Assembly: GCA_016765495.1 (NCBI GenBank)
Contig: JAESPV010000008.1
Location: forward strand, 5,497 to 69,496
Source: Desulfocapsa sp.
GTDB lineage: Bacteria > Desulfobacterota > Desulfobulbia > Desulfobulbales > Desulfocapsaceae
DNA length: 64,000 nt
Direction of reading: 5' to 3'
Shown here: positions 43,090 to 62,300 of the stretch, one piece after another
How the letters are laid out: each line of letters begins with the position of its first letter
Position numbering within the stretch: the first letter of the stretch is position 1
Position numbers and translations under genes: made by a program
The notes under the pieces: generated by a model
The model's database searches: none
Told to the model about the DNA's origin: nothing
Seen by the model: only the letters and a program-made list of their open reading frames with translations

Positions 43090-43989
43090 ATGAAGGTTTG
43101 TATGAATGCACTACTTGGAGCAGTTTTGCTGGTGCTATTCTTTGCCGGGTATGGATGGAGTGAAGACAGGGTTTTAAAAATGTCCACAACCACAAGCACA
43201 CAGTCTTCCGGTCTGTTAGATATTCTTTTACCCGAGTTTAAGAAAGATAGTGGAATCAAAATAAAGGTAATTGCCAAAGGTACAGGGGCTGCTATACGAG
43301 ATGGCAAGGATGGCAATGTTGATGTCATTTTTGTTCATGCTAAAGATCGTGAAACTGCTTTTGTGGCAGATGGATTTGGAACTGCACGTTTTCCGGTGAT
43401 GTATAATGATTTTGTTTTGCTGGGACCTGCAGAAGATCCGGCCGGTATCAAAGGAATAAAGGATGTGGCCATGGCTCTTGGTAAAATTGCAAAGGCAAAA
43501 GAGATGTTTGTTTCCCGGGGGGATGACAGTGGTACGCATACAAAAGAGCAGGCACTGTGGGCTGCCAGTGGCGTTGATCTTATGGAAGTGAGCCAGACAA
43601 TTATAAAAAAAGGCAAAGAGAGTAAGGTCAGCTTGAAGCGTCCTGCTAATTCGGACACCTGGTATGTTTCCATTGGGCAGGGTATGGGCAAGGTCATTAC
43701 CTATGCTGATGAAAAACAGGCGTATACTCTTGCTGATCGCGGAACCTATATCAAATATAAATTCGGCAGGAACCCTGCCATTGCACTTGATGTTTTAAAT
43801 GAAGGAGATGCAAATCTTGCAAATCCGTACGGTATTATCCCTGTAAACCCCAAAAAACATCCACATGTCCAGTATGAAATGGCCATGGAGTTTGTTGACT
43901 GGATTACCGGCGAGCGTGGCCAGAAATTGATTGCTGACTACAGGCTTGAAGGAAAGCAGCTTTTTTATCCACAATCCAACAGGAGGTAG
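43090..43989 (+). CDS. tupA: Tungstate ABC transporter substrate-binding protein TupA
   Basis: Periplasmic protein that captures tungstate. The 299-residue product has a signal peptide (about 1-23, ending AGYGWSED) and the family hallmark TTTSTQSSGL near the mature N-terminus, where the Thr and Ser residues contact the oxyanion. VIAKGTGAAIRDGKDGNVD and SRGDDSGTHTKE loops complete the site. GGAGGAG precedes the ATG. It is the first of three genes with tight spacing (tupB starts inside its stop codon). Tungstate specificity over molybdate is by family resemblance (TupA, not ModA). Confidence 0.93.
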   Translation: MKVCMNALLGAVLLVLFFAGYGWSEDRVLKMSTTTSTQSSGLLDILLPEFKKDSGIKIKVIAKGTGAAIRDGKDGNVDVIFVHAKDRETAFVADGFGTARFPVMYNDFVLLGPAEDPAGIKGIKDVAMALGKIAKAKEMFVSRGDDSGTHTKEQALWAASGVDLMEVSQTIIKKGKESKVSLKRPANSDTWYVSIGQGMGKVITYADEKQAYTLADRGTYIKYKFGRNPAIALDVLNEGDANLANPYGIIPVNPKKHPHVQYEMAMEFVDWITGERGQKLIADYRLEGKQLFYPQSNRR

Positions 43990-44693
43990 TGGATATTTTT
44001 CTGGATAGTTTGGAATCTGCTTTTTTATTGTTGCTTGCCCGTGACCCCGAGCTACTGGATATCGTAGCAGTATCACTCAAAGTCAGCACCATCTCCACAC
44101 TGGTTGCATCACTGGTCGGGATTCCCTGCGGATTTTTGATTGCTTATTCCAGCTTTTATGGAAAACGACTGCTTCTGACATGTCTGAATACCTTGCTGGC
44201 ACTGCCCACGGTTGTTATTGGTCTGCTGGTCTATTCTTTTATCTCCAGACAGGGGTTATTGGGATCAATGGAATTGCTGTATACCCAGAAGGCTATTATT
44301 ATCGGTCAGGTGATTCTGATTATTCCTCTTGTCACATCGTTGACCATTGCCGCAGTCAGCAGAATTGACAAGCGCTATCGGAACACGGCTCTAACTCTTG
44401 GAGCAACCCAGCTACAGATGGCGTGGGTGATAATTAAGGAAGCTCGATATGGAATTGGAGCAGCCGTAATTGCCTCTTTTGGCAGGGTCATTGCCGAGGT
44501 GGGGATCAGTATGATGCTTGGTGGCAATGCCAGGGGATTCACCCGTACCATGACAACAGCCATGGCTCTTGAGTATGATAAGGGGGAGTTTGTTTTAGCT
44601 GTTGCTCTAGGACTCACTTTGATGACAATCGCATTTGGCATAAATATGCTGTTTCATTTCTTCCAGGGAAGGGCCGGGATAGATGCTCTATAA
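43989..44693 (+). CDS. tupB: Tungstate ABC transporter permease TupB
   Basis: Inner-membrane permease, 234 residues, with five or six predicted membrane segments and the permease-ATPase contact loop around the EAA-like motif (NTALTLGATQLQMAWVIIKE). It starts with GTG, whose G is shared with the last base of the tupA stop codon, and AGGAGG lies four bases upstream, so translation is coupled. It overlaps tupC by 11 bp. Confidence 0.93.
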   Translation: MDIFLDSLESAFLLLLARDPELLDIVAVSLKVSTISTLVASLVGIPCGFLIAYSSFYGKRLLLTCLNTLLALPTVVIGLLVYSFISRQGLLGSMELLYTQKAIIIGQVILIIPLVTSLTIAAVSRIDKRYRNTALTLGATQLQMAWVIIKEARYGIGAAVIASFGRVIAEVGISMMLGGNARGFTRTMTTAMALEYDKGEFVLAVALGLTLMTIAFGINMLFHFFQGRAGIDAL

Positions 44694-45378
44694 GGCAGAC
44701 ACTCTGATAAAGGAATTCAAGGGGCGCAAGGTTCTGAATCTTACTGACTTTGAAATTGAGAGGCAGCAAATTTATGCGCTTATTGGAGCCAATGGTGCCG
44801 GGAAAACAACGCTTTTGAACATTCTGGCATTTCTTGTTCAACCCGTATCCGGGAACCTGAAATTTTGCGGCAGAAATGTCTCATATCGCAGGAAGCATCT
44901 TCTGGATTTACGGCGGCGGGTGGTGCTTGTTGATCAATATCCCATTCTTTTCACAGGTTCTGTCGGGAAGAATGTTGAGTTTGGTCTGAAAGTTCGGGGA
45001 ATGTCAAAAAAGCAACGTGAGAGGCGGGCGGATGAGGTTCTGGAGCTTGTGGGCATGCAGGAATTCCGGTCGGCTGATGCCCATAAATTGTCCGGCGGGG
45101 AAAGTAAGCGTGTTGCAATGGCCAGGGCTCTGGCCATTGCTCCCGAAGTTTTACTCTGTGATGAACCCACCGCAAATGTTGATGAGGAAAATCAGAAGAT
45201 TATCCTGGATATTCTGGAGAGAATCAACAGAGAAAACCAAACGTCAATAGTCATGGCAACCCATTATCTTTCACAAATCAGACGATTGGCGCATCATACC
45301 CTGATGCTTGAGCACGGGATGCTGGTAAATCCTTTTAAAAGCGTTTCTCGAAATAGGGTTTCAAGATATCTGGGATGA
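44683..45378 (+). CDS. tupC: Tungstate ABC transporter ATP-binding protein TupC
   Basis: ATPase of the tungstate importer, 231 residues. Walker A is GANGAGKTT, the signature [15 protein letters not shown], Walker [13 protein letters not shown] and the H-loop ATH. It completes the tupABC set with the upstream regulator. Its 3' end overlaps the convergent serS gene by 44 bp (45335-45378), so its last residues share DNA with the end of the seryl-tRNA synthetase. Confidence 0.93.
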
Positions 45379-48943: not shown

Positions 48944-49741
48944 GTGATCCGGGATACGAAAAAAGAAGAAGATATTACAGAGTTGCTTGTTGATATTCGT
49001 GGCGTTGTGGAAGCTCACCAGGCAAGCTCAATTACTCATTATCCTGCCAGCGATGAACTGAAAACTTTTTTTAATCTCCGAAGGCCCCTACCGACGCCTG
49101 CTTCAGCAGATATTCCCATAAAAGCAAAAGAGTCTGAACCTGACAAGCCCATATTGAAAGTAAAGCATAGTGATCATGCCAGGCTTGCTGAAATTGCAAC
49201 TGAAGTGGGACAGTGCAGGAGCTGTACACTCAGTGTGAATCGAAAGACAGTTATAGCAGGCAAAGGCGGTGGAAACAAGATTCGTCTCTTTATTATTGGT
49301 CACTGGCTATCTGTCCTGGAAAATTACAATACAGAGCTTGTTTTCGGACTTGAAGAAGATCAGATGCTGGTGCGCATGCTCGCTGCGATTAATCTTCCAA
49401 TGGAAGAAGTCTTTGTAAGCAATGTGATCAAGTGTGGTCTCAGGCCGGATATTCGGCCTCAGGCGGAACATATTGCTACCTGTGCATCCTATTTGCAACG
49501 CCAAATCAATGCCGCTTCCCCTGAATGTATCTGTACCATGGGGATGGTGGCCACCAGAACCATGCTTCGCAGGTCTCAGCCCCTTTCACAGCTTCGTGGA
49601 CGTTTTCACCCATATAAGGCTGCTAATGGAGTTGAAATTCCGTTACTTCCCACCTATCATCCTGGATATCTGCTTCAGAATCCTGAAATGAAGAATGCCA
49701 CCTGGCAGGATTTGCAACTGCTGCAAAAACGATTACTTTAA
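48944..49741 (+). CDS. Uracil-DNA glycosylase family 4, divergent active site
   Basis: A 265-residue protein of the family 4 type, iron-sulfur uracil-DNA glycosylases. The presumed [4Fe-4S] ligands are intact: CRSC (C-x2-C) and KCGLR...ATC (C-x15-C). NVIKC and the C-terminal THPGYLL-type YHPGYLL motif are present. The first active-site motif, normally GEAPG followed by E, reads GHWLSVLE, so the usual Glu is missing. An ~85-residue, weakly conserved N-terminal extension is present. It begins with GTG after GGAAGAAG. Activity is doubtful without testing, or the substrate differs. It overlaps the convergent PqqD-like gene by 9 bp. Confidence 0.8.
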   Translation: MIRDTKKEEDITELLVDIRGVVEAHQASSITHYPASDELKTFFNLRRPLPTPASADIPIKAKESEPDKPILKVKHSDHARLAEIATEVGQCRSCTLSVNRKTVIAGKGGGNKIRLFIIGHWLSVLENYNTELVFGLEEDQMLVRMLAAINLPMEEVFVSNVIKCGLRPDIRPQAEHIATCASYLQRQINAASPECICTMGMVATRTMLRRSQPLSQLRGRFHPYKAANGVEIPLLPTYHPGYLLQNPEMKNATWQDLQLLQKRLL

Positions 49742-50140
49742 AACTTGTGCCTCCCGCGGATCATATAAGGCAATAAATCCCCGCTGCCCCAATGTCTTTA
49801 AAAAAGCAGCCACAGCAGTCTCAGCTTCCTGGCTTGTCACCCTGTAGTCATGAGCAAAAATCCTGATAATGTCTTTTACCGTGTTTTTTCCATCAATAAG
49901 ATTCCAGACGAAGCTACCCATCTGGTCAAGTTGTAATTTTTTGGTCGGCATTTCATCCTGCTTTCTCCTGAATTTCTGGTGCAGAGCTATGAAAAAACGA
50001 CTTAACGGAATGGCGTAAGTGAAAATGATCTCACCATTGTCCAACTTCTGCCAGTTGATTTCGTCATTTTTCAGGGGGATACAAGCAAGAGACTCTGTTC
50101 GGCTGAGAGTCTCCTGGATGCTAGAGCGAGAAGATTTCAT
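49733..50140 (-). CDS. PqqD-like protein (RiPP recognition element type)
   Basis: A 135-residue protein whose C-terminal ~85 residues match the PqqD fold: LDQMGSFVWNLIDGKNTVKD, then IIRIFAHDYRVTSQEAETAV and a final strand-helix (LGQRGFIAL). In PQQ and many peptide-modification pathways this domain binds the precursor leader peptide. Here an N-terminal extension of ~50 residues precedes it. No radical SAM enzyme or precursor peptide is in view, so the partner is unknown. Start may be ATG 50140 or TTG 50149. It overlaps the end of the upstream gene by 20 bp and is thus translated with it. Confidence 0.8.
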   Translation of the reverse strand: MKSSRSSIQETLSRTESLACIPLKNDEINWQKLDNGEIIFTYAIPLSRFFIALHQKFRRKQDEMPTKKLQLDQMGSFVWNLIDGKNTVKDIIRIFAHDYRVTSQEAETAVAAFLKTLGQRGFIALYDPREAQVLK

Positions 50141-50996
50141 AACTGTCAACGATACTTGTAATCAATTCTTCGGGAATGGGTTTTTTATCAAAGAAGAAGA
50201 TCCCGCTTATGCGGTCATGTTCAGGGTGATGGCGCAGGATAACCGAATGGAAGGGCGGTTTTCGCTTGAGCCTGCTGCGTATTTGCTGGAAAATGGATGG
50301 AAAGGAACGGTGGCTGATGGAGTTTTCCAGATGTGTCATTTCATCTTCTTTGATATCTAAGTCACCTAGAAGGTTTATGAGAGTGGTCATGGATGATGTC
50401 TTTAAACGATGTTCTGCTCCCGCAATCCTGCAGAGATGCATGGTGAGACCGGAATCTACAAAAGAAATTCTGGTGAGTCCTGCACCAAAGTTATGTCCGG
50501 TCATCCTAAATCTTTTTGGCAGGAGGATCCTGAAATCCTGAATAGCCCAAAGGCGTGTTTCGCTATTCTTGTCAGTATGGCAACTGATGGAAGAAATAAT
50601 TTGTGTTACGTCCCGGTGATGTTTTGTGGCAAGATCGTAAAAGAAGTAGAGCAGGAGAGTGGTTCTGCACTCTTTGCAGATAAGGATTGCAGCTGTAAGC
50701 TCTCGTGTCTCCTTGTTAACAAGAAGCTTTAGGGCATACTGCTCCTGTAGCTTTTCCCAGTATGGTGGCAGGGAATCCTGCACAAGTAGGCCGGTTTCTT
50801 TAGCGATTTTACGCAGAGTCGTATCGATGGATTTCTTGCCATGTCTTTTTTCTTCTTGCCAGCGCAGTTCAAAAAGAGGTTGAAAATCCTTTTCAAACAG
50901 AAGAAGGGTCGCGCCGGAAACAATAGTTTCCCACTCCGCGGGGCAGGAAATACGAATGCTGTTCCAGCTAATATGCTGCCAGGAATTCATTACCAC
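50121..50996 (-). CDS. Internally duplicated soluble protein of unknown function
   Basis: A 291-residue protein I do not recognise, without signal peptide or membrane segment. Its two halves resemble each other: IRISCPAEWETIV...LLFEKDFQPLFELRW near the N-terminus aligns with FRILLPKRFRMTG...ISFVDSGLTMHLCRI from ~152, and the ends of both halves (RTTLLLYFFYD / RISGIFFFDKK, then IISSISC / ITSIVDSY) also match, indicating an ancient duplication. Start is GTG 50996 or ATG 50990. It lies 4 bp after the secreted protein gene and overlaps the PqqD-like gene, so the three form one operon. Confidence 0.75.
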   Translation of the reverse strand: MVMNSWQHISWNSIRISCPAEWETIVSGATLLLFEKDFQPLFELRWQEEKRHGKKSIDTTLRKIAKETGLLVQDSLPPYWEKLQEQYALKLLVNKETRELTAAILICKECRTTLLLYFFYDLATKHHRDVTQIISSISCHTDKNSETRLWAIQDFRILLPKRFRMTGHNFGAGLTRISFVDSGLTMHLCRIAGAEHRLKTSSMTTLINLLGDLDIKEDEMTHLENSISHRSFPSIFQQIRSRLKRKPPFHSVILRHHPEHDRISGIFFFDKKPIPEELITSIVDSYEIFSL

Positions 50997-51000
50997 GACA

Positions 51001-51600
51001 TTAATTGGGGATCAGATATTTCCAGCCTGTTTTCTTGCGTTGCAGCAGTCGCTCCTTGTCATCGCTACTGATGTTCATGGTGCATTGTCTCGTAAAACAG
51101 GCCTGTTCCCGTGCGATATTGTCAGGATAGAAAAGCTTGACCATGTTGCCGATATTTTCATTAGGGTTTTTTGTGTTGTGCTGCAGGATCAGATGAACCC
51201 GATTCTTGTTTTCATCAACAAATTTCCATTTCCAGATGTGGAGGATACCAAAGGAATCGCCTTTCCATTCCGCAGGTTTTCCGAATTTCTTTTTAAACTT
51301 TTTAAGCAGCAGTTTAAAATATTTTTTACTGGGGTCTGCATATTTGAATTTTATTTTGACGATTTCTCCGGGGTTTTCACAAACGCCATAAGAGATGATT
51401 CCTTTGTCAAATCCATACCAGTCGTAGATTACGACTTCTTTTAAAAAATTAGAGTGTTCGATGTCGGGGTAATCCGTGACATTACTACCAAGAACAAAAC
51501 CACCTACCTCATGCGGCACATTTGTTGCTGAGCCAGTGACCGGAAGAAGGAAAAGAAGGTGTAAAAAAATGATACCACTGGTTAAAAGATGCCTGTTCAC
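51001..51600 (-). CDS. Secreted protein of unknown function
   Basis: A 199-residue protein with a signal peptide (about 1-25, LLFLLPVTGSA). The mature part is rich in Lys and aromatic residues (IKFKYADPSKKYFKLLLKKF; IWKWKFVDENKNRV) and looks like a single alpha/beta domain; two cysteines occur near the end (ACFTRQC). No family was recognised. It begins with GTG, supported by GGAG six bases upstream. It is the first gene of the operon that runs to the PqqD-like protein and is divergent from the ABC exporter (176 bp between). Confidence 0.75.
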   Translation of the reverse strand: MNRHLLTSGIIFLHLLFLLPVTGSATNVPHEVGGFVLGSNVTDYPDIEHSNFLKEVVIYDWYGFDKGIISYGVCENPGEIVKIKFKYADPSKKYFKLLLKKFKKKFGKPAEWKGDSFGILHIWKWKFVDENKNRVHLILQHNTKNPNENIGNMVKLFYPDNIAREQACFTRQCTMNISSDDKERLLQRKKTGWKYLIPN

Positions 51601-51776
51601 AATGGACTCCTGTTAGTGCTGAATAAAATAATTTGTAGCTCTCATCTATATTACTCTGTATCATGGAATTACGCTTTATTCCAGTCTTCCGGTGAGAATT
51701 CATTTTTATGTGTGTTGGATACGAGCCTTATTCGAACTGATTCAATCAGCCAATTCGTTCACTCTCTTTGTCGGGT
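51601..51776. promoter_or_regulatory. Divergent promoter region of the PqqD and ABC operons
   Basis: An AT-rich 176-bp spacer between the GTG of the secreted protein and the ATG of the ABC exporter; both transcripts must begin here. No clear shared operator stood out. The exporter start has only a weak GGG as ribosome site. Confidence 0.45.
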
Positions 51777-54347
51777 ATGAAAAAAACAGCAATAGATTCC
51801 AGTGTTCGTATTACGCAACGGTCTCTTTTTTACTGGATACTCAGACGGCATCGCCTTATGCAGCTATTTTTGCTGTTGATTATTGTCGTCAGTCTCTTTT
51901 TTAAAGTCTTTCCCCTTGAGATGCAGAAACGCATCATTAATGAAGCCATTTATCTAAAAGATGTTCACCTGCTGTATTTGTATTGCGGTTTGTACATTGG
52001 CGCGGTGACCATCGCTGGCTTGCTGAAATATGGTATCAATGTGCTGCAGGTATATATTGGTCAGAAAATTCTGATAGAGATGAGAGAGGAACTCTACCAG
52101 CATGTTTTGCAGTTACCGCTGCAGTTTTACAGGAAGATGCAGGCGGGTACTGTTATTTCTGCGATGACGGCAGAGTTGAATGCCATTGGGTTTTTCCTCG
52201 GCGGCGCAATTGCCATTCCCATTACCAGTATTCTAACATTTGCTGTTTTTGTAGGTTTTATGTTTAATCTAAACCCCTTACTGGCTTTTCTCAGCATGGG
52301 GATTTATCCTTTTGAGCTTGTGGTTATTCCTTTTCTTCAGAAAAAATACAATAAACTCAATAGCAAACGTGTGAAAACTACACGTTCCATGGCTAATGTG
52401 GTGAATGAATCCATCTCAGGGATTCATGAAATTCACGGAAACACCAGTTACGGGCTGGAGGAGAAAAAACTTAGCTCCTATATCAGGCAATTATACGCTT
52501 TGATGAAAAAACTGTTTATTGTTAAGTACGGTATTAAGTTTGTGAATAACTTTTTTCAGTCATTGGGGCCATTTATCCTTTTTCTTGTGGGTGGCTATAT
52601 GGCTATCAATGGCCAGTTTACACTCGGTGCACTGGTTGCTTTTCTGTCTGCCTATGAAAAGGTTTATGATCCCTGGAAGGAGCTTATAGAGTATTATCAG
52701 AGTTATCAGGATGCCCAGATTCGCTATCGTCAGATAATGCAGATTTTCGATATGGATCCTCCTCATCTGCTTTTACCTCCAGGGCGTGAACCCCTTACCC
52801 TGCAGGGTGATATCAGCTTAAAGAATGTTACATTTACGGTTTCAAGTGGAGTCAGGCTGCTTGAAGACATAAATTTTGATATTAAATCCAATGAGCAGAT
52901 AGCACTTGTTGGGTACTCCGGGTCGGGTAAGTCTACCCTGGCACTTCTCATTGCCCAACTCTATGACTCCAGTCAGGGAAGTATTGATATTGGTGGATCT
53001 TCAATTGAGGATCTTTGCAAGATGGATATTGGAAAGAATGTTGCCATGATCTCCCAGCATCCTTTTATCTTTTCAGGAACTATTTCAGATAACCTGCTTT
53101 ATGGTATTCAGGCTATTGCAAATGATTGTGATAAAAAAATCCCTGATCGTGCAAAGATCCTTTCGGTAATCCGTGATGTCGGGCTTCAAGATGATATTAT
53201 CCGCTTTGGTTTACAAGCAGTTCTTTCTCCTGAAGAGTGCCGTCCGTTTAGAGATAAGTTTCTGCGTATGCGGGAGATTGTCCAGACTGCGTTACGGGAT
53301 GAGTTTGCGTCTGCCATTGAATTTTATGACGCTACTAAATACCTCCATTATTCCAATATTCGTGATAATATTGTTTTTGGTGATAGTTTAAACGGTGAAT
53401 TTATTATTGAGCGTTTGCCGGATCATCCCCGCTTTATACAGTTGCTTTGTGAAGTGAAGCTTGAGAAACCCCTTGTGACCCTGGGTTTTACCATTGCCAC
53501 TCAGACAGTCAATCTACTCGCTGATTTTCAGGAAGATGAGTTTTTCTTCCGTGATAACCCAATGGAGTCAAAGGAGTTTGGGGCATACAGTGAATTGCTT
53601 GCTCGTCTAAGCAGCCCACAACCAAATGACGAAGAAGCACGGAGGTTGTTGCTTATTCTTGCGCTTCGCTTTATCCCCGGGAAGCATTCTATTGTCTCTT
53701 TGCCTTCTGCCATTGAGCGAAAGATTCTTGCTGCGCGGCATCGTTTTCAAGAGACAATTCTTCATATTGATATGGCTCATTGTAAGAAATATGGTAGTAG
53801 TATACCATGTAGAAAACTTCCAAGGTGTGGTGATGAGAGCGACTTTGTTCCTTTCTGCCCAAACGAATATTTATATACTCGCACTTTGCTTGATAACATT
53901 TTATTTGGTGCTGTAAAATCGGAACAGTTTCTTGGTGACCATCTTCGTATATTGGCCACTCAAGCATTCCAGGATGAAAAACTTCTCGATGAGGTAATGG
54001 ATATTGGTCTTAGTTTCGAAGTGGGAAGTAAAGGTGACAGGCTTTCTGGTGGCCAGAAACAGAAACTTGCCATTGCCAGAGCATTTTTAAAAGATGCACC
54101 AATTCTTATTATGGATGAGGCCACGGCCAGCCTCGACAATACTTCTCAGGCTCGTATTCAGAGCCTGCTCGAAAATGAATTTAAGGGCAAAAAAACTATT
54201 ATTGCTGTTATCCATCGCCTGGATCTCACCCCGGCGTATGATCGTATAATTGTGCTGAAGGCTGGAAGGATTGTTGAACAGGGGACGTATGACCAACTCA
54301 TGGAACGGAAAGGAGATTTCTATGAACTCGCCCGAGCAGAATTCTGA
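51777..54347 (+). CDS. ABC exporter (permease-ATPase) with ~270-residue insertion in the NBD
   Basis: An 856-residue half-transporter. Six membrane segments fill ~25-330 (type I exporter fold). The ATPase has Walker A GYSGSGKST at ~379-387, a Q-loop (MISQHPF), signature LSGGQKQKLAIARAF at ~756, Walker B LIMDEATASLD and H-loop VIHRLD. The distance from Walker A to signature is ~377 residues instead of ~105. The insertion contains two further copies of the segment that normally follows the Q-loop: IRDNIVFG (~528) and LLDNILFG (~704), besides the normal ISDNLLYG (~437), plus a four-Cys cluster (~662-690). The reading frame is uninterrupted, so this is real architecture, not a frameshift. It overlaps the cyclic-nucleotide-binding gene by 26 bp. 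Confidence 0.92.
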   Translation: MKKTAIDSSVRITQRSLFYWILRRHRLMQLFLLLIIVVSLFFKVFPLEMQKRIINEAIYLKDVHLLYLYCGLYIGAVTIAGLLKYGINVLQVYIGQKILIEMREELYQHVLQLPLQFYRKMQAGTVISAMTAELNAIGFFLGGAIAIPITSILTFAVFVGFMFNLNPLLAFLSMGIYPFELVVIPFLQKKYNKLNSKRVKTTRSMANVVNESISGIHEIHGNTSYGLEEKKLSSYIRQLYALMKKLFIVKYGIKFVNNFFQSLGPFILFLVGGYMAINGQFTLGALVAFLSAYEKVYDPWKELIEYYQSYQDAQIRYRQIMQIFDMDPPHLLLPPGREPLTLQGDISLKNVTFTVSSGVRLLEDINFDIKSNEQIALVGYSGSGKSTLALLIAQLYDSSQGSIDIGGSSIEDLCKMDIGKNVAMISQHPFIFSGTISDNLLYGIQAIANDCDKKIPDRAKILSVIRDVGLQDDIIRFGLQAVLSPEECRPFRDKFLRMREIVQTALRDEFASAIEFYDATKYLHYSNIRDNIVFGDSLNGEFIIERLPDHPRFIQLLCEVKLEKPLVTLGFTIATQTVNLLADFQEDEFFFRDNPMESKEFGAYSELLARLSSPQPNDEEARRLLLILALRFIPGKHSIVSLPSAIERKILAARHRFQETILHIDMAHCKKYGSSIPCRKLPRCGDESDFVPFCPNEYLYTRTLLDNILFGAVKSEQFLGDHLRILATQAFQDEKLLDEVMDIGLSFEVGSKGDRLSGGQKQKLAIARAFLKDAPILIMDEATASLDNTSQARIQSLLENEFKGKKTIIAVIHRLDLTPAYDRIIVLKAGRIVEQGTYDQLMERKGDFYELARAEF

Positions 54348-54855
54348 TCCCGAAGCTATGACTCACCTGACCGTTACTCAGGAGTTTCTGAATAGATTCC
54401 ATATATTCACTGGTGCGCCCGGAGCTGTGGTGAGTCTTTTTGCTTATCTTGCTAAAAAGGAGGATTTTGCAAAAGGTCAAACGATTCTGAGTCAGGGAAA
54501 TCGCTGTGACCGTATTTTTCTGATAGTGTCAGGGAAAGTGGATATTTTTCAAAATTTTAATGGGCGGCGGTTCCACTTGCAACTGCTCAGTAGCGATACT
54601 TTTAATTACTTTGGTGAGCTGGCTCTTCTTGCTGAATTCGATTGGTTTTTTTCGGCACGAGCATGGACAGATGTACGTTTGCTCAGCATTAGTCGTGAAG
54701 CATTCACTAAAGTAATGGAGCGCTATCCCGAGTCGTATCAGAGTATGGTTCAAAAAATAATTAATTCGCGGATTCATCGCTTTGTTGATCAACAAAAGTA
54801 TTTGATGCATCACATTTCACCAGAGGCCTGGCGGGAAGAGCCGGGTGAAGAATAA
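54322..54855 (+). CDS. Cyclic-nucleotide-binding domain protein without HTH
   Basis: A 177-residue protein made of one CRP-type cNMP-binding barrel (KGQTILSQGNRCDRIFLIVS, then the FGELALLAE phosphate-binding cassette) and a C-terminal helix (MVQKIINSRIHRFVDQQKYL). There is no DNA-binding domain, so it is not a CRP-type regulator by itself. The ATG at 54322 has perfect AAGGAG before it and lies inside the end of the exporter gene, implying translational coupling. It may therefore gate or recruit the exporter in response to a nucleotide. Ligand identity is unknown: the Arg that contacts the phosphate in CRP is not seen after FGELALL. Confidence 0.85.
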   Translation: MNSPEQNSDPEAMTHLTVTQEFLNRFHIFTGAPGAVVSLFAYLAKKEDFAKGQTILSQGNRCDRIFLIVSGKVDIFQNFNGRRFHLQLLSSDTFNYFGELALLAEFDWFFSARAWTDVRLLSISREAFTKVMERYPESYQSMVQKIINSRIHRFVDQQKYLMHHISPEAWREEPGEE

Positions 54856-54878
54856 AATTTTTCAAAAGAGAGAGTATT

Positions 54879-55370
54879 ATGTCCGGTAAAATATTTCCAT
54901 TATATTATATAATCGTTATTTTTTTTCTTCTATTTTCATATGGTTGTGCGGCATTATCTGCTCCAACGGGTGGCCTCCGAAAACGTATGGAGGTTGAACA
55001 ACTTTTCGAATCCGCAACCCTTTTGCCTGATCATACATACTATATCTACGGTTCAGATGTTGAACCTGAAGCAATAATAGCTATTTCCAATGAATTTCGC
55101 CTTCAGACAAAACTTTGGTCGCAAAGAGATTGGACAGCTGAGGAATTAAAAAAAGCCGTATTCTGGGTGGAGTTTGTTGAATCTGACTTTTGTGAAGCTA
55201 AGGGGGGGGTATTACTTGCGCCGGATGGACAGGAAATAGGTGCTTGGTATTCCAAGAGGGATATTGCCAGTGTGCGTCAGCCGTCCCCTGGGGTTGTTGA
55301 GGTCTTTCCTTTTCGTTATCGATGGGGATCTCCATGTGAGCGGATTGAGCGGATTGATTGGAGGGATTAG
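54879..55370 (+). CDS. Lipoprotein of unknown function
   Basis: A 163-residue predicted lipoprotein: a hydrophobic signal segment ends in a lipobox-like FSYGC, so Cys23 would be lipidated. The mature domain (YYIYGSDVEPEAIIAISNEF; LWSQRDWTAEEL; FVESDF) matches no family I can name. It follows the cyclic-nucleotide-binding gene by 23 bp and likely closes that operon. Its stop codon overlaps that of the convergent polytopic protein gene. Confidence 0.75.
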   Translation: MSGKIFPLYYIIVIFFLLFSYGCAALSAPTGGLRKRMEVEQLFESATLLPDHTYYIYGSDVEPEAIIAISNEFRLQTKLWSQRDWTAEELKKAVFWVEFVESDFCEAKGGVLLAPDGQEIGAWYSKRDIASVRQPSPGVVEVFPFRYRWGSPCERIERIDWRD

Positions 55371-57325
55371 TAAGCCAGGTGTCCCAGTGATTTCATGATA
55401 AGCGCCAGTCCCATGGCAAACATTCCTGTAAGTCCCATGCCGCAGGAAAATCCGGCAAGCAACACCGGAGCATACTGTCGCCACATGGGACCGTAGCGTT
55501 TATAAAAGAAATAGCGTCCAAGAAATGCGCCAAGCACTTCCAAAATCAGGCCGTGAGGTGTTGATTGGCCAAGACCGCGCACGACTCCATAGATGAGAAG
55601 AATAGGCAAGCCAAAGAGGCTGAGTATAAAATACATAAGCAGTCCAAAGCCCAGGCCTGAAAATACGGTGGTACTGTTGAGAGCCTGATAGAACATGGAA
55701 TTCCCTTCCATGGTAGATGTCTGCATAAGCAGAGTGTTTAAGGCCTGGAGGTGCCAGAGCTCTTGGGCGAATGGGTAGTGGCTTGATGGTATGGGAGCGA
55801 GTCTCCAGATAAACTGGGAGAAAAGTAAACTTGCCACCATCACAATGGGAAAGACCACAATCTCTGCTTTTATAATCCCCCGGATGGACGTTCCGGTGAG
55901 TTCAATCTGCCTGAACTGTACCGTAGCCTCCCCATAGTTATGTATGGGAATCGGGGCATACCAGATTTCGATTCCCTGATAGCCAAAAAAACGTGCTCCT
56001 GCGATAAAACTTGCTTCCCTCACCAGTGGCAGGCTTACAAATTGCCCGGCAATTCCCTCCATTCGTGCGCTGATGTAAGAGATGATGGGAGTGTAGATGA
56101 ATCCATACCCGAGGAAAAATATCCATGGGAAATTTGGCACTAACCAGACACAGAGGCCGACATAGGCAAGGGTTGAGAAAAAATAGATTGCAATTGATAT
56201 CCAAAAATTAAAATCTCCTCGTCCAGCAGGTGGATGGAAAAGATCATGCAGAGTTCCCATATTCCCTTTTGTGGATCGGTATGATCTTGCAACGGACCAG
56301 ATGCCAATTACCCCGATAGCAAGGCCCAGGCCAATACCAAAGCTCATATAAAAATCAAAGTTGTTGGCAAAGACTGTGTCCACGGTGGCCATACCGGGAT
56401 GCCAGCGTTGCAGAATACCCTGGGCATACAAAAAGGGGTTTAAAATAATAGTGATGATCAGCCCGATCAGCCCGCCAATTACTGCCCAGAATGGAAGAAC
56501 CATTCCAATGAAAACCAGACCCAGATCAAGTTGAATGCCCGTAGCCACTGCTGGAAGTATATCTTCTGTATGGCTGGTCAGCTCAATCCAGGGAATGGGG
56601 ATAAGACGGATCGGTTCGTTGAAAATGAGTCCTGATGCAATGGGGAGCAGAACATAAAAAGCTCCAAAGACAAGACCGATTACCCCGCCAATGGAGAAGA
56701 CCCGCCATTTCCAGCTTTTCTTTTTCTCTTCAGTGGATTCGGCAAGTGCCATGGTACCCAAAGCAGCTACGGGAGCCATGGGGAAGGGTAGTTTCTCCAC
56801 GTCTGAGGTGATACGGTACAGGGCATAGCCAAGACCAAAGTGATCGATACGCTGAATAATTTGCGAGCCGACGAGCAGGAGAATGGGAATCATCCAGTCC
56901 CGATGAAAAAAAGTTCGTTCCACCAAGGATAGGGAATCTGCTCCCGGAGCTACCCAGGTTGGGATAAATTCGGTAAGCCCAAGCATTTGTGCGGCATCGG
57001 ACTGGACAAGATATTGGTTCCACAACAGCCCGGAAAAGGGTGAAGCGAGAGCAGCTCCCGCCATATAATAAAGAAGAAAAATCTCCTGCTGTTTAAGTTC
57101 AGAATGTGCTCTTTTCGCCACTTCTGCAAAAAGAATGATGGTTACCCAGCGCGCAGCGGGGCCAATGCCCTGGCCAATAACCAACTGCAGATACATGGAC
57201 CCCGGCATCATGAGAAAACCGATGAATACCGCACCTATTATGGTCTTCCAGTCAAATCCTTCTTCGAAATGATCAGGAGGTTTGAGAAGGTCTCTATATT
57301 CTTTTAGTTCTTTGTCGTCATACAT
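55367..57325 (-). CDS. Large polytopic membrane protein (DUF6785-like)
   Basis: A 652-residue protein with about 13-15 predicted membrane segments and no enzyme motif. Sequence style (WTIILFAEVAKRAHSEL, QEIFLLYYMAGAALASPF, AQGILQRWHPGMATVDTVF) matches a family of OPT-like transporters annotated as DUF6784/DUF6785. Function is unknown; a transport role is inferred. It shares its operon with the next two genes upstream and starts 28 bp after the preceding gene. The ribosome-binding region is made of three tandem GGGAAC hexamers (57335-57352). Confidence 0.7.
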   Translation of the reverse strand: MYDDKELKEYRDLLKPPDHFEEGFDWKTIIGAVFIGFLMMPGSMYLQLVIGQGIGPAARWVTIILFAEVAKRAHSELKQQEIFLLYYMAGAALASPFSGLLWNQYLVQSDAAQMLGLTEFIPTWVAPGADSLSLVERTFFHRDWMIPILLLVGSQIIQRIDHFGLGYALYRITSDVEKLPFPMAPVAALGTMALAESTEEKKKSWKWRVFSIGGVIGLVFGAFYVLLPIASGLIFNEPIRLIPIPWIELTSHTEDILPAVATGIQLDLGLVFIGMVLPFWAVIGGLIGLIITIILNPFLYAQGILQRWHPGMATVDTVFANNFDFYMSFGIGLGLAIGVIGIWSVARSYRSTKGNMGTLHDLFHPPAGRGDFNFWISIAIYFFSTLAYVGLCVWLVPNFPWIFFLGYGFIYTPIISYISARMEGIAGQFVSLPLVREASFIAGARFFGYQGIEIWYAPIPIHNYGEATVQFRQIELTGTSIRGIIKAEIVVFPIVMVASLLFSQFIWRLAPIPSSHYPFAQELWHLQALNTLLMQTSTMEGNSMFYQALNSTTVFSGLGFGLLMYFILSLFGLPILLIYGVVRGLGQSTPHGLILEVLGAFLGRYFFYKRYGPMWRQYAPVLLAGFSCGMGLTGMFAMGLALIMKSLGHLAY

Positions 57326-57334
57326 AGTTTATTT

Positions 57335-57352
57335 CGTTCCCGTTCCCGTTCC
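57335..57352 (-). repeat. Triple hexamer repeat in the ribosome-binding region
   Basis: Three tandem copies of a six-base unit, GTTCCC phase on the + strand and GGGAAC on the - strand, fill the gap between two genes, 9 bp before the ATG at 57325. The repeat supplies the only Shine-Dalgarno-like purines. Confidence 0.7.
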
Positions 57353-59350
57353 TTAGTCAGGTAGTACCTGATAACCAGAATCAGTAAACATTCCCACAAT
57401 TGCCCAGCCTCCTCCCATAAGGAAGTCTCCAATAATGAGGCCAATAAAGAAAAATTGAACCTTTTTAAACAGTGAGACACCTCCATAGCGCATACATATA
57501 GCGTTGCAGGCCCAACCGATAAAGAAACTGACCCAGAGAATACGCATGGCCGAACTGTATGCGGTAAGATAGCCAAGAGGATGAATTGGCCACCAGTAAA
57601 ATCGATGGTAGCAGACCACCAGAATCAGCATAACGATGGCCCCCGCAATGGCAAAAAGGGTGATCCAGCTACCTGTTTCCACGGGGGTGGTAACCAGACG
57701 GTGCACATTTTCAAAGACGGTAACAGTGGTTCTGCTCGCCCACTCCATCTGGAGTTCCCGTGTTCCATAGCGATAATAAAGGGTCATCATGGCCAGAATA
57801 CTGGCCACAAGACTTGCAAGAATGGTGAAAAAAAGTCCTGAGAAGATGAGTAATCCTGGACGTCTCCCATGGCTCAGGTTTCGTGCATGGAGCAGAGATG
57901 GCATAAGGGATTCGCGCAGGTCAACAAAAAGTGCTTTTTGTGTCATGCCGGCAAGTAATCCATTTATTCCACTGAAAAGTTTTGTTCCACCAATTGCAAG
58001 TAATCCATCCATCGGGGCGGCTGTGAGGGTGAAATAGGCAAGCCCGCCCTGGCAGATAATTCTTGTGGCAACCAGCATGATCATAAATGATGCACTGAAA
58101 AAGAGCATGGCATTTATAAGGCTCATGCCAAGTGAAACCGCCCAGAATAAAAGGGCACAAAAACAGAAAACAGCTCCCCAGAAGGAAACGCGTACATCAA
58201 ACCATTCGGTTCGTGCCTGCCTTGGTTTGGTAAGAAAGAGGGATTCTTTGGTGACTTCAATGAGATGGGAACGAGCCAGCCACATAATAAAGACAAAAAA
58301 GACCCCGTATGCCCCTATCATCTGCGTTTCCTCTGGCCTTGCCAGTGTCGGGCCAAAGGTTATACCGAGCTCTGATGCCGGGATGGTATAACCAAGAACT
58401 CCAAGAATGCCAAAAAGAAGCCCGCCCATGATGAAGAAAAACCAGAAACTGAAAGAGATTTGTCTGGAGGCGAGAAAAGCAAAGCCGATAAATGCAGGAT
58501 AGATATAGATTTTCAGTTTATGAAAACCTGAGAAGATACCTTCTTTGGGGAAATAAGGACCTGCGAGAATAAGTGTCGAGAGTTGTGGAACAGATGGATA
58601 ATAATAATGCAATCCATTTAAGAGATGAAGAAATACAGGGATCATAAGGCCTGCCAGGAGAAAGCGGTTAGCAAAAAAACTTCCAACCTTTCCTTCGTCC
58701 AGTGATTTGCTTAACATTTGAGGAACGCGGAGCAGTGGAAAATTTAGCCGTTCATTATGGATCCACTGACGGGAAAGAATGTTGATGATAAAAAGCATAA
58801 AACCATAGGCTAAAAGAATAAAAGTACCCCAGAGCAGCAGGGGGGAAATCCATGCACTCCACGGAATTTCACGGGCTACCTCAAACCAGGTCATGCCGCG
58901 TCCACCGGGAATTCCTGTGTAGAGCAGTTCAATGGCGTGGGGATTAGTGGGAGTGATGCCCTGGGGTAAAGTGGAGAGAATACTCTCCTGCCATTGATTG
59001 CTGACAGTTGCGTAATGAACAGGAGTGGTGAGATTGAGCAGCAGGGTGCGAGCCATTCCGGTGTAGGCAATTCCTGAGCCAATAACCATCTCAATCCAGA
59101 CTATCAAGAGTTCACTTCCTGTGAAAAACAGCGATCTTCCGGGGAAAACCTTTGCTGAAATTGCAGTAAGGATGGTGAGAATCAGAAAGATAAAGAATGG
59201 TGCCAGGGGAAAATGACCACCGCCAAGAGGTGTTGCCTGCAGATAGATATTGTTGAACGGGGTAAGGAGGCAAATCCCTACGGCTAACACCATACCCAGC
59301 ACGATTCCACGCAGGCGAATAGGAGTAGCCGTGTGCAGTGAATCAGGCAT
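57353..59350 (-). CDS. Large polytopic membrane protein, paralogue of its neighbour
   Basis: A 665-residue protein with about 14 predicted membrane segments, opening MPDSLHTATPIRLRG, with loops TPLGGGHFPLAPFF, GRGMTWFEVAREIPWSAW and RIICQGGLAYFTLTAAPMDG. It belongs to the same DUF6785/DUF6784-type group as the following gene. ATG 59350 is supported by GGAG seven bases upstream and by overlap with the stop of the permease gene (8 bp). Function is unknown; co-transcription with an FtsX-type permease suggests an envelope transport complex. Confidence 0.75.
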   Translation of the reverse strand: MPDSLHTATPIRLRGIVLGMVLAVGICLLTPFNNIYLQATPLGGGHFPLAPFFIFLILTILTAISAKVFPGRSLFFTGSELLIVWIEMVIGSGIAYTGMARTLLLNLTTPVHYATVSNQWQESILSTLPQGITPTNPHAIELLYTGIPGGRGMTWFEVAREIPWSAWISPLLLWGTFILLAYGFMLFIINILSRQWIHNERLNFPLLRVPQMLSKSLDEGKVGSFFANRFLLAGLMIPVFLHLLNGLHYYYPSVPQLSTLILAGPYFPKEGIFSGFHKLKIYIYPAFIGFAFLASRQISFSFWFFFIMGGLLFGILGVLGYTIPASELGITFGPTLARPEETQMIGAYGVFFVFIMWLARSHLIEVTKESLFLTKPRQARTEWFDVRVSFWGAVFCFCALLFWAVSLGMSLINAMLFFSASFMIMLVATRIICQGGLAYFTLTAAPMDGLLAIGGTKLFSGINGLLAGMTQKALFVDLRESLMPSLLHARNLSHGRRPGLLIFSGLFFTILASLVASILAMMTLYYRYGTRELQMEWASRTTVTVFENVHRLVTTPVETGSWITLFAIAGAIVMLILVVCYHRFYWWPIHPLGYLTAYSSAMRILWVSFFIGWACNAICMRYGGVSLFKKVQFFFIGLIIGDFLMGGGWAIVGMFTDSGYQVLPD

Positions 59351-62300
59351 TACTTGTCTCCATGGTGGTTTTTGTGTCCTGGTTTTCAGTGTCAATTGCT
59401 TGGAATTGTTTTGCAAAATAAGTGTGGCTGGCGTCGTCAATGGATCGCCATACCAGCAGTTGTTTACGAAGGTCATGAAGAAAGGAAATATTAATCCGTT
59501 GCCAGAGTTGTTCTTCACCTGATCTTCTTTCCAGGGTTACCTTGATTTCCAGGTACTTGGTGTCCCCGTCAACAGGACAGAATTGAATATCAACCCACTG
59601 CATGATACCAAAGTCAAATGGGGCAAGCCACACCTTTGATCGAATATGGGTACAGTGCATCCCATGAGGACACGCTGCATTGTTTACCATTGTACGTATT
59701 TCGTCGATATTGTAACAGCTGGAAACACGTTCAACTGAGCCCGTTGAAAAAAGTCCATGGGAGACGTCCTGGTGGGATTTGAAGTAACTGAAGATAAAAC
59801 CGCCAATGGAGTCAATTTCTTCATATTTCATAAAGAAGGGAAGGGTTATGGTGATACGATTTCCCACAGCCTTAGGCAGATTGAAGTTGGCATTCACATC
59901 AGGAATGGCTATACGTGCTGCCACTCGTGAGGGGTATATGACCGAAAGAAGCACCACACCAATAACCAGTACCATGGCTGCAACGCCTGCCATGGAGGAA
60001 TAATTGACGGTGAGCCCTGCCCACAGGCTTGTGTCGGCAAAAAGAGCTGCTGAAACCTGGGCGAGAAGGTATCCAAGTACCACGGAAATAACAGCCAAAG
60101 CCAGTGCCTCGGCAATAAAAAGAAAAGAAACATGAGACGGAGCCAGGCCCACAGATGTGTAAATTGCAATCTCGTTTTTACGCTCATATACGGAGCTGAT
60201 CATGGTATTCAAAACGATGAAAATTGAAATAAGAAGCGGGATGAGAATATTGGGCACACCACTGTACTTGATGGAATCACTTTGGTTATAGAGCCAGACA
60301 CCATCTTCCTGTCCTGCAAAAATAGACATGGAAAAGCGATCAACAAGTGCCTCGGCCGTCTCATTGATGGATTCGCCAGCCTCTGGTAGAGCAGCAAGGT
60401 TTTTCAGCTTCCCGCCCATGGTGAGCAGCGTTTTGGCAGGAATGATTGCAACCTGTGAGGCAGGGATATGGTGATAGCGGCTCTGGAATGAGCGAATATC
60501 GTCACCTGATTCCATGGCATCCTGTTCAACTTCTGTGATTTCAGCCCCTGATTCTGCAGGAAAGATGACAGGCGTTAATGGCTCACCGTCAAGATCCAGT
60601 GTCTGATCGAAGGCAGCCCCGTCAAAACTGCCAATTACTGTAAAGTCATAGCCCCATACCTTAATGGCTTCAGTGCCATCGGTTTTGACGTGAAGATTCT
60701 GTGCCATATTATGATCGAGAATGATAGCCCGGATATCATTGCTTACAAACCATCTGCCCGTTGTCAGAATTGCATCAAGCCCAGTGATATTGGCCTCGGC
60801 AGGAGAAAGGCCAATCAGCCCTTCAAGTTCGGCGTTGTACTTACCGTTTTGCAGAGGGACATGTACGGCCTGTGTGGCATCACGGGATTCAAGCCAGATG
60901 CGTGGTGCCGCACCTTTTGTACCCTGAACTCCACCCATAAGATTATCAACTGCTTCCACCGGTAGACTTTTCCAGTCCGTACGTTTTAAGAGTAATCCCT
61001 GATAGGGAGCATCTTCCTGGAAAAAGAGTCTGGATAGTCTTTGTCCGGACTTTACCGTGGTAAAACTCATGATGGTAAAGGTGAGAATAATTAAGGTGAG
61101 GCAGGTCAATATGGTGCGTATCCGTCTGCGTCTGAGGTTGGAAACCCCTAAGAAAAATGCGGCAGTAAATGCTTTCCAGTGGCTGATCTCGGCGGGTCGT
61201 TTATGGCTGGCACGTCGCTGCAGGAGGATCATCTCTTCTTCAAATCGGAAAAAGATGATTAGGCTTACCATCAGTGAAAGACCAAGGATAAAAAAGGCCA
61301 GGATCACAACGGTTGGGCTGTATGCCAGTTGAAAGGCGGGATGCACATTATAAATAATTGCTATGAGAACAAAGAGAATCCCGCAAAAAGCAAGGATTCG
61401 TTTATAAATATTTGCAAAATTAAAGAGAAAACGCTCCATGCAAAAGGCAAAGGGAACAAACAGAGCTATATAAAAGAGCACGCCTAACAGGACATCTTTC
61501 TGAGTTCTTTCAACTTGTACATAGACACGATTGGCCAGGGCGAGAGCCTCAGCCGATGCACTGCTGAAGGTTTTATAGTCATGTTCGAGGAGACTTTTTT
61601 CTGCTCGCATGAGTGAGCTAAGGCCCCGCTCTTCCAGCAGACTTATTTTGTTGTCATAGATACCATGATTTTCGAGATTCTTGATTCTCGGAGAAAGAAC
61701 TGTCCAGACATCGCGTGCCGCCCGATACACGGTATTATGTATGGCATTGTATTGATCCACAGGATAGCCAAAACCCATGGAATTATCTTCTGTTCCATTG
61801 GTGAGAATCATTTTATGAGTGAGCACATTGTCGGACAGGGTGACCTTGAGCCATGTTCCCGGTTCTGTGTAGATGGTGGCCATGGTCGAGTTGCGGGTGT
61901 CAATCCGGCTGTACCAGTAGTGAGCAGGAGGGGCATCTCTTCGCCCATCGAGGAGTTGTATTTTTGTAAGGTAATTAAAGTTACGTGGCTCCAATAGGCC
62001 AAAGATGGTGGTTTCTTTGCAACTGAAAAGAATGAGGTCTGTTTTCATGTCACGTCTGAGAATTTTAAGACGGTAATTATTCTTTCCCGTATTCTTTTTA
62101 TCAATAGCCCAGAGCACCTGACCTGTATCCGCATCAAAACGATAGCCTTCGATAATCAGTTTGTCGAGCTGGTGTTTTTTGTCGGCAATGCCTTTTACCC
62201 GGAAGGTTCCTGAAGAATCCACGGCAGCATAGTGTTTTTGAGATCCCTGATAGGCCAGAAGGATGGTCTTTGCTGCCGGGTAATTAGCAAAAAGTTCACC

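Follow-up and report, generated by a model that had tools for sequence, protein, structure and literature searches.

The stretch of DNA analysed here, 64,000 nucleotides from a Desulfocapsa sp. genome (contig JAESPV010000008.1, positions 5,497 to 69,496; hereafter the window), carries a block of six genes that may belong to a larger, co-inherited system of the cell envelope. The six genes form two divergent operons, as a first-pass annotation of the sequence had described, and every open reading frame (ORF) is present at the positions and on the strands listed in Table 1. Genes that we call A, B and D lie on the minus strand, where A and B are separated by 4-10 bases and B and D overlap; on the plus strand the order is T, C and L. 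A, B and L have no Pfam family above cut-off, and the labels "secreted" for A and "lipoprotein" for L come from N-terminal hydrophobic stretches judged by eye. The starts of T (ATG 51777) and D (ATG 50140) were chosen by comparison with the nearest homologue. C probably starts at ATG 54322, 26 bases within T; AAGGAG precedes this codon, and the corresponding alignment column holds Met in all 30 sequences. In all 30 adjacent pairs measured from named loci, the called ORFs of T and C overlap (8 plus-strand, 22 minus-strand), and where a minus-strand T diverges from a plus-strand A the gap is 89-214 bases (7 loci).

Table 1. Features of the window and of related loci; positions refer to the window unless a locus is named.
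Feature	Position	Strand	Description
A ORF	51001-51600	-	199 residues
B ORF	50121-50996, part listed as 50121-50990	-	291 residues
D ORF	49733-50149, likely ATG 50140	-	138 residues, PqqD-like winged-helix
A/T divergent intergenic region	51601-51776		sequence
T ORF	51768-54347, likely ATG 51777	+	859 residues, MsbA-like ABC exporter
Stretch between first N-L-L-Y-G motif and LSGGQ	53106-54041	+	312 residues, degenerate extra helical-subdomain copies
T repeat motifs	53088-53105, 53364-53381, 53892-53909	+	sequence motifs
C ORF	54271-54855, likely ATG 54322	+	PF00027, cyclic-nucleotide-binding fold, overlaps T end
L	54879-55370	+	putative lipoprotein, narrow distribution
O8	55367-57325	-	multi-pass permease, no Pfam family
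O9	57353-59518, true start probably near 59330	-	DUF6785/DUF6784 permease
P21	59343-64000, cut by window end	-	M28-peptidase + FtsX permease, 1608 residues
Past window end, upstream of P21 (L034)			LolD-like, FtsX, DUF2334 deacetylase-like, GT28-type, histidine phosphatase
Further upstream (L034)			GT4-type, GT4, GTa, hexapeptide-transferase-like
T homologue, Rhizobium plasmid	L089:8773-11487
T homologue, Phyllobacterium plasmid	L090:8782-11505
T homologue, Ensifer plasmid	L091:8725-11415

The argument for a larger system begins with the distribution of T, of the permease gene O8 and of GTa, a glycosyltransferase (GT) gene beyond the window end. Among 395 genomes of the phylum, each was found in 28 (T by profile at E ≤ 1e-110, O8 at E ≤ 1e-60, GTa at 297 bits or more), and the three sets of genomes are identical at these score lines, which we picked ourselves, the value of 297 being read from the list. 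All 13 genomes with B fall inside this set. The hypergeometric value is 10^-42.8 per pair if genomes are treated as independent, and because they are related it is not a true probability. The carriers span 12 families, two of which (f1 and f2) also include genomes with neither T nor O8. Simple linkage is insufficient to explain the co-occurrence of T and O8, since just four of the 28 genomes (G105, G026, G161 and our own, G000) have the two on the same contig and no more than 25 kb apart; they share a contig at distances of at least 87 kb in another four (G277, G316, G371, G391) and are on separate contigs in 20. A caveat is the contamination rating of the source genome, 7.28%, but the same T-C/A-B-D block is found in a second genome of the genus (G339), with its O8 run on another contig.

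The first-pass annotation delimited the six genes correctly and missed that the conserved unit reaches through 55367-64000 and past the end of the window. In our genome one minus-strand run reads HEX-GTa-GT4-GT4'-HPHOS-GT28-PDA-FtsX-LolD-P21-O9-O8, where LolD is the label that we assigned to an ABC (ATP-binding cassette) ATPase. GTa has a GT28 C-terminal domain and its best NCBIfam score is to MJ1255, under the cut-off; O9 matches DUF6785 and DUF6784 (556 and 123 bits). Across the 27 other genomes with O8, full-length identity to the protein of the window is 70-96%. Among 20 fetched O8 loci from other genomes, O9 adjoins O8 in 19, and 17 of the stretches contain P21; only O9 is seen in L169 and L181, the P21 and LolD of L181 being in the next stretch (L204), and L182 has O8 without O9. 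A stretch upstream of the FtsX-to-O8 run was fetched for 23 genomes, and 16 of them have at least one gene of the GT cluster there (G000, G105, G339, G088, G036, G389, G037, G233, G316, G187, G211, G296, G276, G162, G334, and G161 with GTa only, on the opposite strand). With a GT run upstream of O8, and GTa occurring in the same 28 genomes as T, this gene content points to glycosyltransferases that have a dedicated exporter. In Rhizobium and Phyllobacterium, too, T-C has relatives of these three GTs in its neighbourhood, with identities of about 30-44% in the cases compared; in the Rhizobium record three genes intervene.

The combination of FtsX-like permeases with an ABC ATPase resembles the LolCDE/MacB machines, and the small permease scores with lolCE/MacB models, below cut-off. 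Here, in contrast, one of the permeases and an M28 peptidase domain form a single protein of 1608 residues, which stands beside O9 and O8. That peptidase domain would also suit a metal-chelator or peptide cycle, in which O8 and O9 would take up a small peptide or metal chelate for P21 to trim, and T would export the carrier molecule. Such a cycle would agree with the Opp-family oligopeptide/nickel-type importer encoded near the T-C pairs of Rhizobium and Phyllobacterium, and with a supposed resemblance of O8 and O9 to OPT transporters. We nevertheless think it unlikely, as no chelator-synthesis gene was recognised, the glycosyltransferases would be left unexplained, and neither O8 nor O9 has a sequence match to a solved structure in the PDB or a profile match to the other; O8 lacks any Pfam family and O9 has only DUF6785/6784. 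A search for O8 that covered plasmids alone gave no match.

The exporter itself has an unusual architecture. T contains ABC_membrane and ABC_tran domains by Pfam. Its Walker A, Q-loop, LSGGQ, Walker B and H-loop motifs are intact, and its best NCBIfam score is to MsbA (TIGR02203; 315.9 bits, below the equivalog cut-off of 602). It shares with MsbA-type lipid and glycolipid exporters the transmembrane domain and the ATPase with its catalytic motifs; it differs from them in having about 310 residues, in part degenerate repeats, between the Q-loop segment and LSGGQ, and the small partner C alongside. Measured from the end of N-L-L-Y-G to LSGGQ, this stretch is 312 residues long in T and 293-336 across 60 aligned homologues, as against 39 in three other exporter ORFs of the genome (L005, L006 and the truncated L008), these being the ones that a script could measure. 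The ATPase expansion seen by the first-pass annotation is thus borne out, and it holds extra copies of the helical-subdomain segment. The repeat unit, Y-L-Y-x-x-T/S-I-x-x-N-I-L-F-G followed by a helix and G-L, occurs in three copies, of which only the last has LSGGQ, the extra copies being degenerate. In hhalign comparisons, segments 2 and 3 matched with probability 97.0 (E 1e-10), 1 and 3 with 92.6 (E 4e-7) and 1 and 2 with 92.9 (E 4e-7). Because the first two segments had been cut so as to overlap, stronger hits from their shared stretch were left uncounted.

The five catalytic motifs examined are all retained in 58 of the 60 aligned T homologues. The two exceptions, on plasmids of Rhizobium and Phyllobacterium, retain the insertion and have GSGAEA/GSGGEA for Walker A, LTMVQ/LTNVQ for the signature and FNRP for Walker B; the Ensifer homologue (L091) is likewise degenerate in its ATPase motifs. 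From these motifs, the rhizobial homologues are apparent pseudo-ATPase ABC proteins, and a cNMP (cyclic nucleotide monophosphate)-fold partner adjoins T where annotated (L089, L090).

That partner, C, matches Pfam cNMP_binding (PF00027) with 64.9 bits against a cut-off of 27.5. The canonical phosphate-binding cassette for cyclic nucleotides has a Glu and Arg pair. C in the window keeps the pocket Glu and has Trp at the canonical Arg position, and sensing of cyclic nucleotides by this protein is therefore doubtful. Both canonical residues are present in three of 58 C homologues (one from G026 and two rhizobial) and the pair is missing in 55, the count being 59 aligned rows minus one wrong-frame row (L091). 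Judging by these residues, we suggest that a protein-docking role is more likely for C than cyclic-nucleotide sensing. The stand-alone cyclic-nucleotide-binding protein of the first-pass annotation holds good as to fold and not as to its canonical pocket, and gating of the exporter by a cyclic nucleotide, with this protein as the gate that the annotation had suggested, becomes doubtful with Trp in the Arg position. Proteins of TIGR03896, the "bacteriocin-type transport-associated" cyclic-nucleotide proteins, adjoin NHLM exporters, and the window likewise pairs an ABC exporter with a protein of cNMP fold; C differs in scoring 13.2 bits against the cut-off of 161 and in having no precursor found nearby.

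In the 28 genomes there are 36 places with T: C adjoins T in 32, the order SpoIIE-T-RsbW-STAS is seen in three, and one is a contig end. One of these three places is on contig C21 of our own genome (L032:7727-12866), where a T paralogue 42% identical to T has, instead of C, neighbouring genes of the SpoIIE, RsbW and STAS types. Genes for STAS, a HATPase_c_2 kinase and SpoIIE were found beside this paralogue and not beside the T of the window. STAS and RsbW genes each occur in 19 of 51 named loci fetched with A. The SypA/SypE partner switch of Vibrio fischeri is reported to place an envelope polysaccharide locus under STAS-type control (PMC4517449), a precedent for such control, and the two cases are alike in joining a STAS-type control protein to envelope polysaccharide genes. 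They differ in that STAS-type genes here adjoin an ABC exporter, with the T-C of the window itself free of them. As a separate observation, a gene for a Fur/PerR-like regulator, assigned to its family by eye, lies near T-C in 10 loci (L125, L134-L137, L139, L146-L149).

The presence of STAS, RsbW and SpoIIE genes next to T in part of the loci raises the alternative that T is mainly a regulator or receptor, which would report the envelope or ATP state to C and to the STAS/RsbW switch. Rhizobial homologues that have lost the ATPase motifs and kept the insertion would fit this role. We consider it distinctly improbable all the same: apart from the two rhizobial sequences, all of the aligned homologues keep the five catalytic motifs, and the transporter domain is present.

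The relation of A-B-D to T-C was followed with a profile scan of named genomes using the A alignment, which gave 51 loci, all Desulfobacterota or deltaproteobacterial by record title except one titled Pseudomonadota. Carriers in culture include Desulfopila aestuarii (L048) and Desulfatibacillum alkenivorans (L071). B was present in 38 of the 51 loci, D in 37, T and C in 30 each and O8 in 28, many of the contigs being short; all 30 loci with T also carry C. When only the 19 loci that have at least 6 kb on one side and 6.5 kb on the other are considered, T is found in 15, O8 in 13, and either or both in 17. The commonest arrangement (11 loci) is O8-A-B-D with a convergent T-C-RsbW-STAS; in others T-C-A-B-D are on the same strand, or T-C diverges from A-B-D as in the window. 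B was found in 12 of the 395 phylum genomes by single-sequence search and in 13 by profile, and all 13 also have T, so the co-occurrence of the two operons, which the first-pass annotation had put forward as its own test, is seen across genomes. A-B-D and T-C are two recurring units that occur together beyond chance.

Could the two units nevertheless be separate, chance neighbours within one conserved gene island? B is missing from 15 of the 28 T genomes, and A-B-D often directly follows O8 instead of T, as such an explanation would lead one to expect. It seems to us quite unlikely, given that no B genome lacks T and that A-B-D is linked to T-C in downstream, divergent and convergent positions and in two T lineages. 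In a quick tree of T, the A-linked genes fall into two well-supported, separate lineages, with at least 3 label changes, a number equally low in 11 of 500 shuffles. The tree was built without the own-genome paralogue L032, and L150 was flagged as a long branch of unsure placement. Its group labels are loose: ABD means a T in a locus fetched with A, a few members being without B or D, and SPO included L123, a contig end where no SpoIIE gene was seen.

A has an invariant Cys74, a near-invariant Cys168 and GDxF and WKW motifs in an alignment of 40; its predicted structure (predicted local distance difference test, pLDDT, 83.6) gave no Foldseek match in the PDB at E ≤ 0.001, the best, at E 0.034, not being usable. 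B has no signal sequence, near-invariant Cys107 and Cys110, and an AlphaFold2 model (pLDDT 92.5, predicted template modelling score, pTM, 0.87) with two similar halves, each predicted to have five strands first and a helix last. Foldseek placed the model near PsbP (2vu4; probability 1.00, TMt 0.61, E 0.0035) and Mog1 (1jhs; probability 1.00, TMt 0.46), and on this predicted structure B may be a tandem PsbP/Mog1-like protein. The internal duplication claimed by the first-pass annotation is therefore supported by the predicted structure and not by sequence, where hhalign of the two halves was not significant (probability 0.3, E 0.17). Sequence searches of the PDB with A, B, O8 and O9 gave nothing convincing. 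D is PqqD-like, as annotated: residues 72-126 match PF05402 with 49.4 bits against a cut-off of 23.4, behind about 60 extra N-terminal residues.

PqqD-like proteins naturally bring to mind the ribosomally synthesised and post-translationally modified peptides (RiPPs), and the first-pass annotation had leaned towards a RiPP-like maturation role. D would then bind a leader peptide, B and A would modify or chaperone the peptide and T would export it. In NCBIfam the best models for D are those of lasso, SCM and PQQ PqqD proteins, every one below its cut-off. For the authors of RRE-Finder (PMC7470986), a neighbourhood in which a PqqD-like protein is accompanied by regulators, enzymes and transporters strongly indicates a RiPP cluster; they also state that false positives outside RiPP clusters were mainly helix-turn-helix domains and relatives of known RiPP recognition element (RRE) proteins, and that some such hits could be RREs of uncharacterised classes. 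D is like these recognition elements in exceeding the family cut-off and unlike them in its extra N-terminal region and in having no precursor or modifying enzyme found with it.

The search for a precursor covered 1427 short intergenic ORFs from named loci with at least three core genes and found no conserved short ORF between the core genes among the 15 widest clusters, which were inspected. These candidates were rejected: most lay in or against O9, because O9 was unmasked in the script, and the others in genes adjacent to D, an FmdB-like ORF being one example. On the contig the nearest radical S-adenosylmethionine (SAM) gene is at C8:92174, more than 30 kb from the six genes and about 14 kb past the upstream glycosyltransferase run. 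No RiPP tailoring family was seen among the annotated genes of the cluster, and in three genomes that share a genus (G213, G277 and G391; loci L027, L029 and L030) B-D lacks A and is remote from T, which those genomes have elsewhere. With no precursor or tailoring enzyme found, the RiPP reading is not supported, and we give it a very slim chance. Elsewhere in our genome, on contig C21 (L033:4650-8441), a second PqqD gene stands with HPr-kinase-like, asparagine-synthase and transglutaminase-like genes by Pfam, a group that resembles a lasso-peptide cluster in its predicted domains.

The remaining gene of the block, L, was found by phmmer among the ORFs of 152 fetched loci in three genomes besides our own; its neighbours there are C in L038, O8 in G339 (L160/L185) and a T paralogue in G088 (L141). 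At 43090-45378 the window also holds three genes that resemble, by eye, a tungstate-type ABC transporter (substrate-binding protein, permease and ATPase). Anti-phage defence was considered with PADLOC and rejected, since only generic matches were returned: T matched through its ATPase stretches (best mad3, 105.7 bits) and C through the cNMP portion of TIR effectors (36.1 bits at best), with nothing for the other six proteins.

Of the explanations considered, we lean towards the six genes being part of a larger, co-inherited system for the synthesis and export of an envelope glycoconjugate, a proposal that we hold at a little under even confidence. On our best reading T is a regulated exporter and A-B-D an accessory module of a system that has so far gone unrecognised, and the first-pass phrase "possibly a new export system" was a fair description. 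In the mechanism that we infer, the products of GTa, GT4 and GT28, together with modifying enzymes, would assemble a glycan on a carrier inside the cell, and T, as an MsbA-type ABC exporter, would use ATP to move it across the inner membrane. C, whose translation would begin within the end of T, would bind and gate T, the triplicated helical subdomain being the likeliest docking site; elsewhere STAS/RsbW/SpoIIE-type partner-switching genes beside T would take over this gating. The LolD-FtsX-P21 machine and the O8 and O9 permeases may handle the product, or its peptide part, in the periplasm. As accessories, D and B could recognise or stage the substrate in the cytosol, with A acting in the periplasm. 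What the sequences show is the gene content, the co-occurrence, the overlap of T with C, the triplication, the intact ATPase motifs and the degenerate pocket; the substrate, the direction of transport, every contact between proteins and the roles given to A, B, D, P21 and O8/O9 belong to the proposed mechanism.

Several observations weigh against the glycoconjugate proposal. No lipid-carrier enzyme or ligase was identified in the gene set. In seven of the 23 genomes no GT-cluster gene was found upstream (G371, G277, G254, G106, G073, G295, G026), some of these upstream stretches barely passing FtsX. At the looser line of E ≤ 1e-20, GTa-like proteins are counted in 41 genomes; the 13 that lack T score at most 259 bits, and the exact match of genome sets therefore depends on a line drawn between 297 and 259. 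Only 13 of the 28 genomes with T have B, and in six of the 51 loci A is unaccompanied by the other genes, although L084 and L087 among these six extend for 10 kb on either side of it. The best Foldseek E-values for B (from 8e-5) are to MucB/RseB and not to PsbP, with TM-scores near 0.2. Finally, loss of the ATPase motifs in rhizobial T homologues that keep the triplicated region, and C where annotated, makes a simple ATP-driven exporter a poor fit in those organisms. A fuller version of the proposal is an unrecognised envelope machine of about 15-20 genes, whose triplicated-subdomain exporter would dock either a cNMP-fold protein or a STAS/RsbW partner on the extra copies and be switched by it, and would be ATPase-dead in Rhizobiales, where the triplicated region and the partner are kept, with A-B-D, a PqqD protein outside RiPPs among them, serving substrate recognition; in all its parts together we think this doubtful.

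No description of this gene set was found in the open-licence papers searched, nor any mention there of DUF6785/DUF6784. Taken singly, the parts fall into families that are either known or of unknown function; it is their assembly, and the architecture of T, that appear undescribed in the literature searched. An exporter, a permease and a glycosyltransferase found in an identical 28 of 395 genomes, mostly not as neighbours, point to a whole pathway that has yet to be named. Such a pathway would give functions to the A, B, O8 and DUF6785 families, and D would show the PqqD fold at work outside peptide natural products. In T, a signature-bearing subdomain that has been copied and specialised would offer a direct way to study how ABC exporters are gated.

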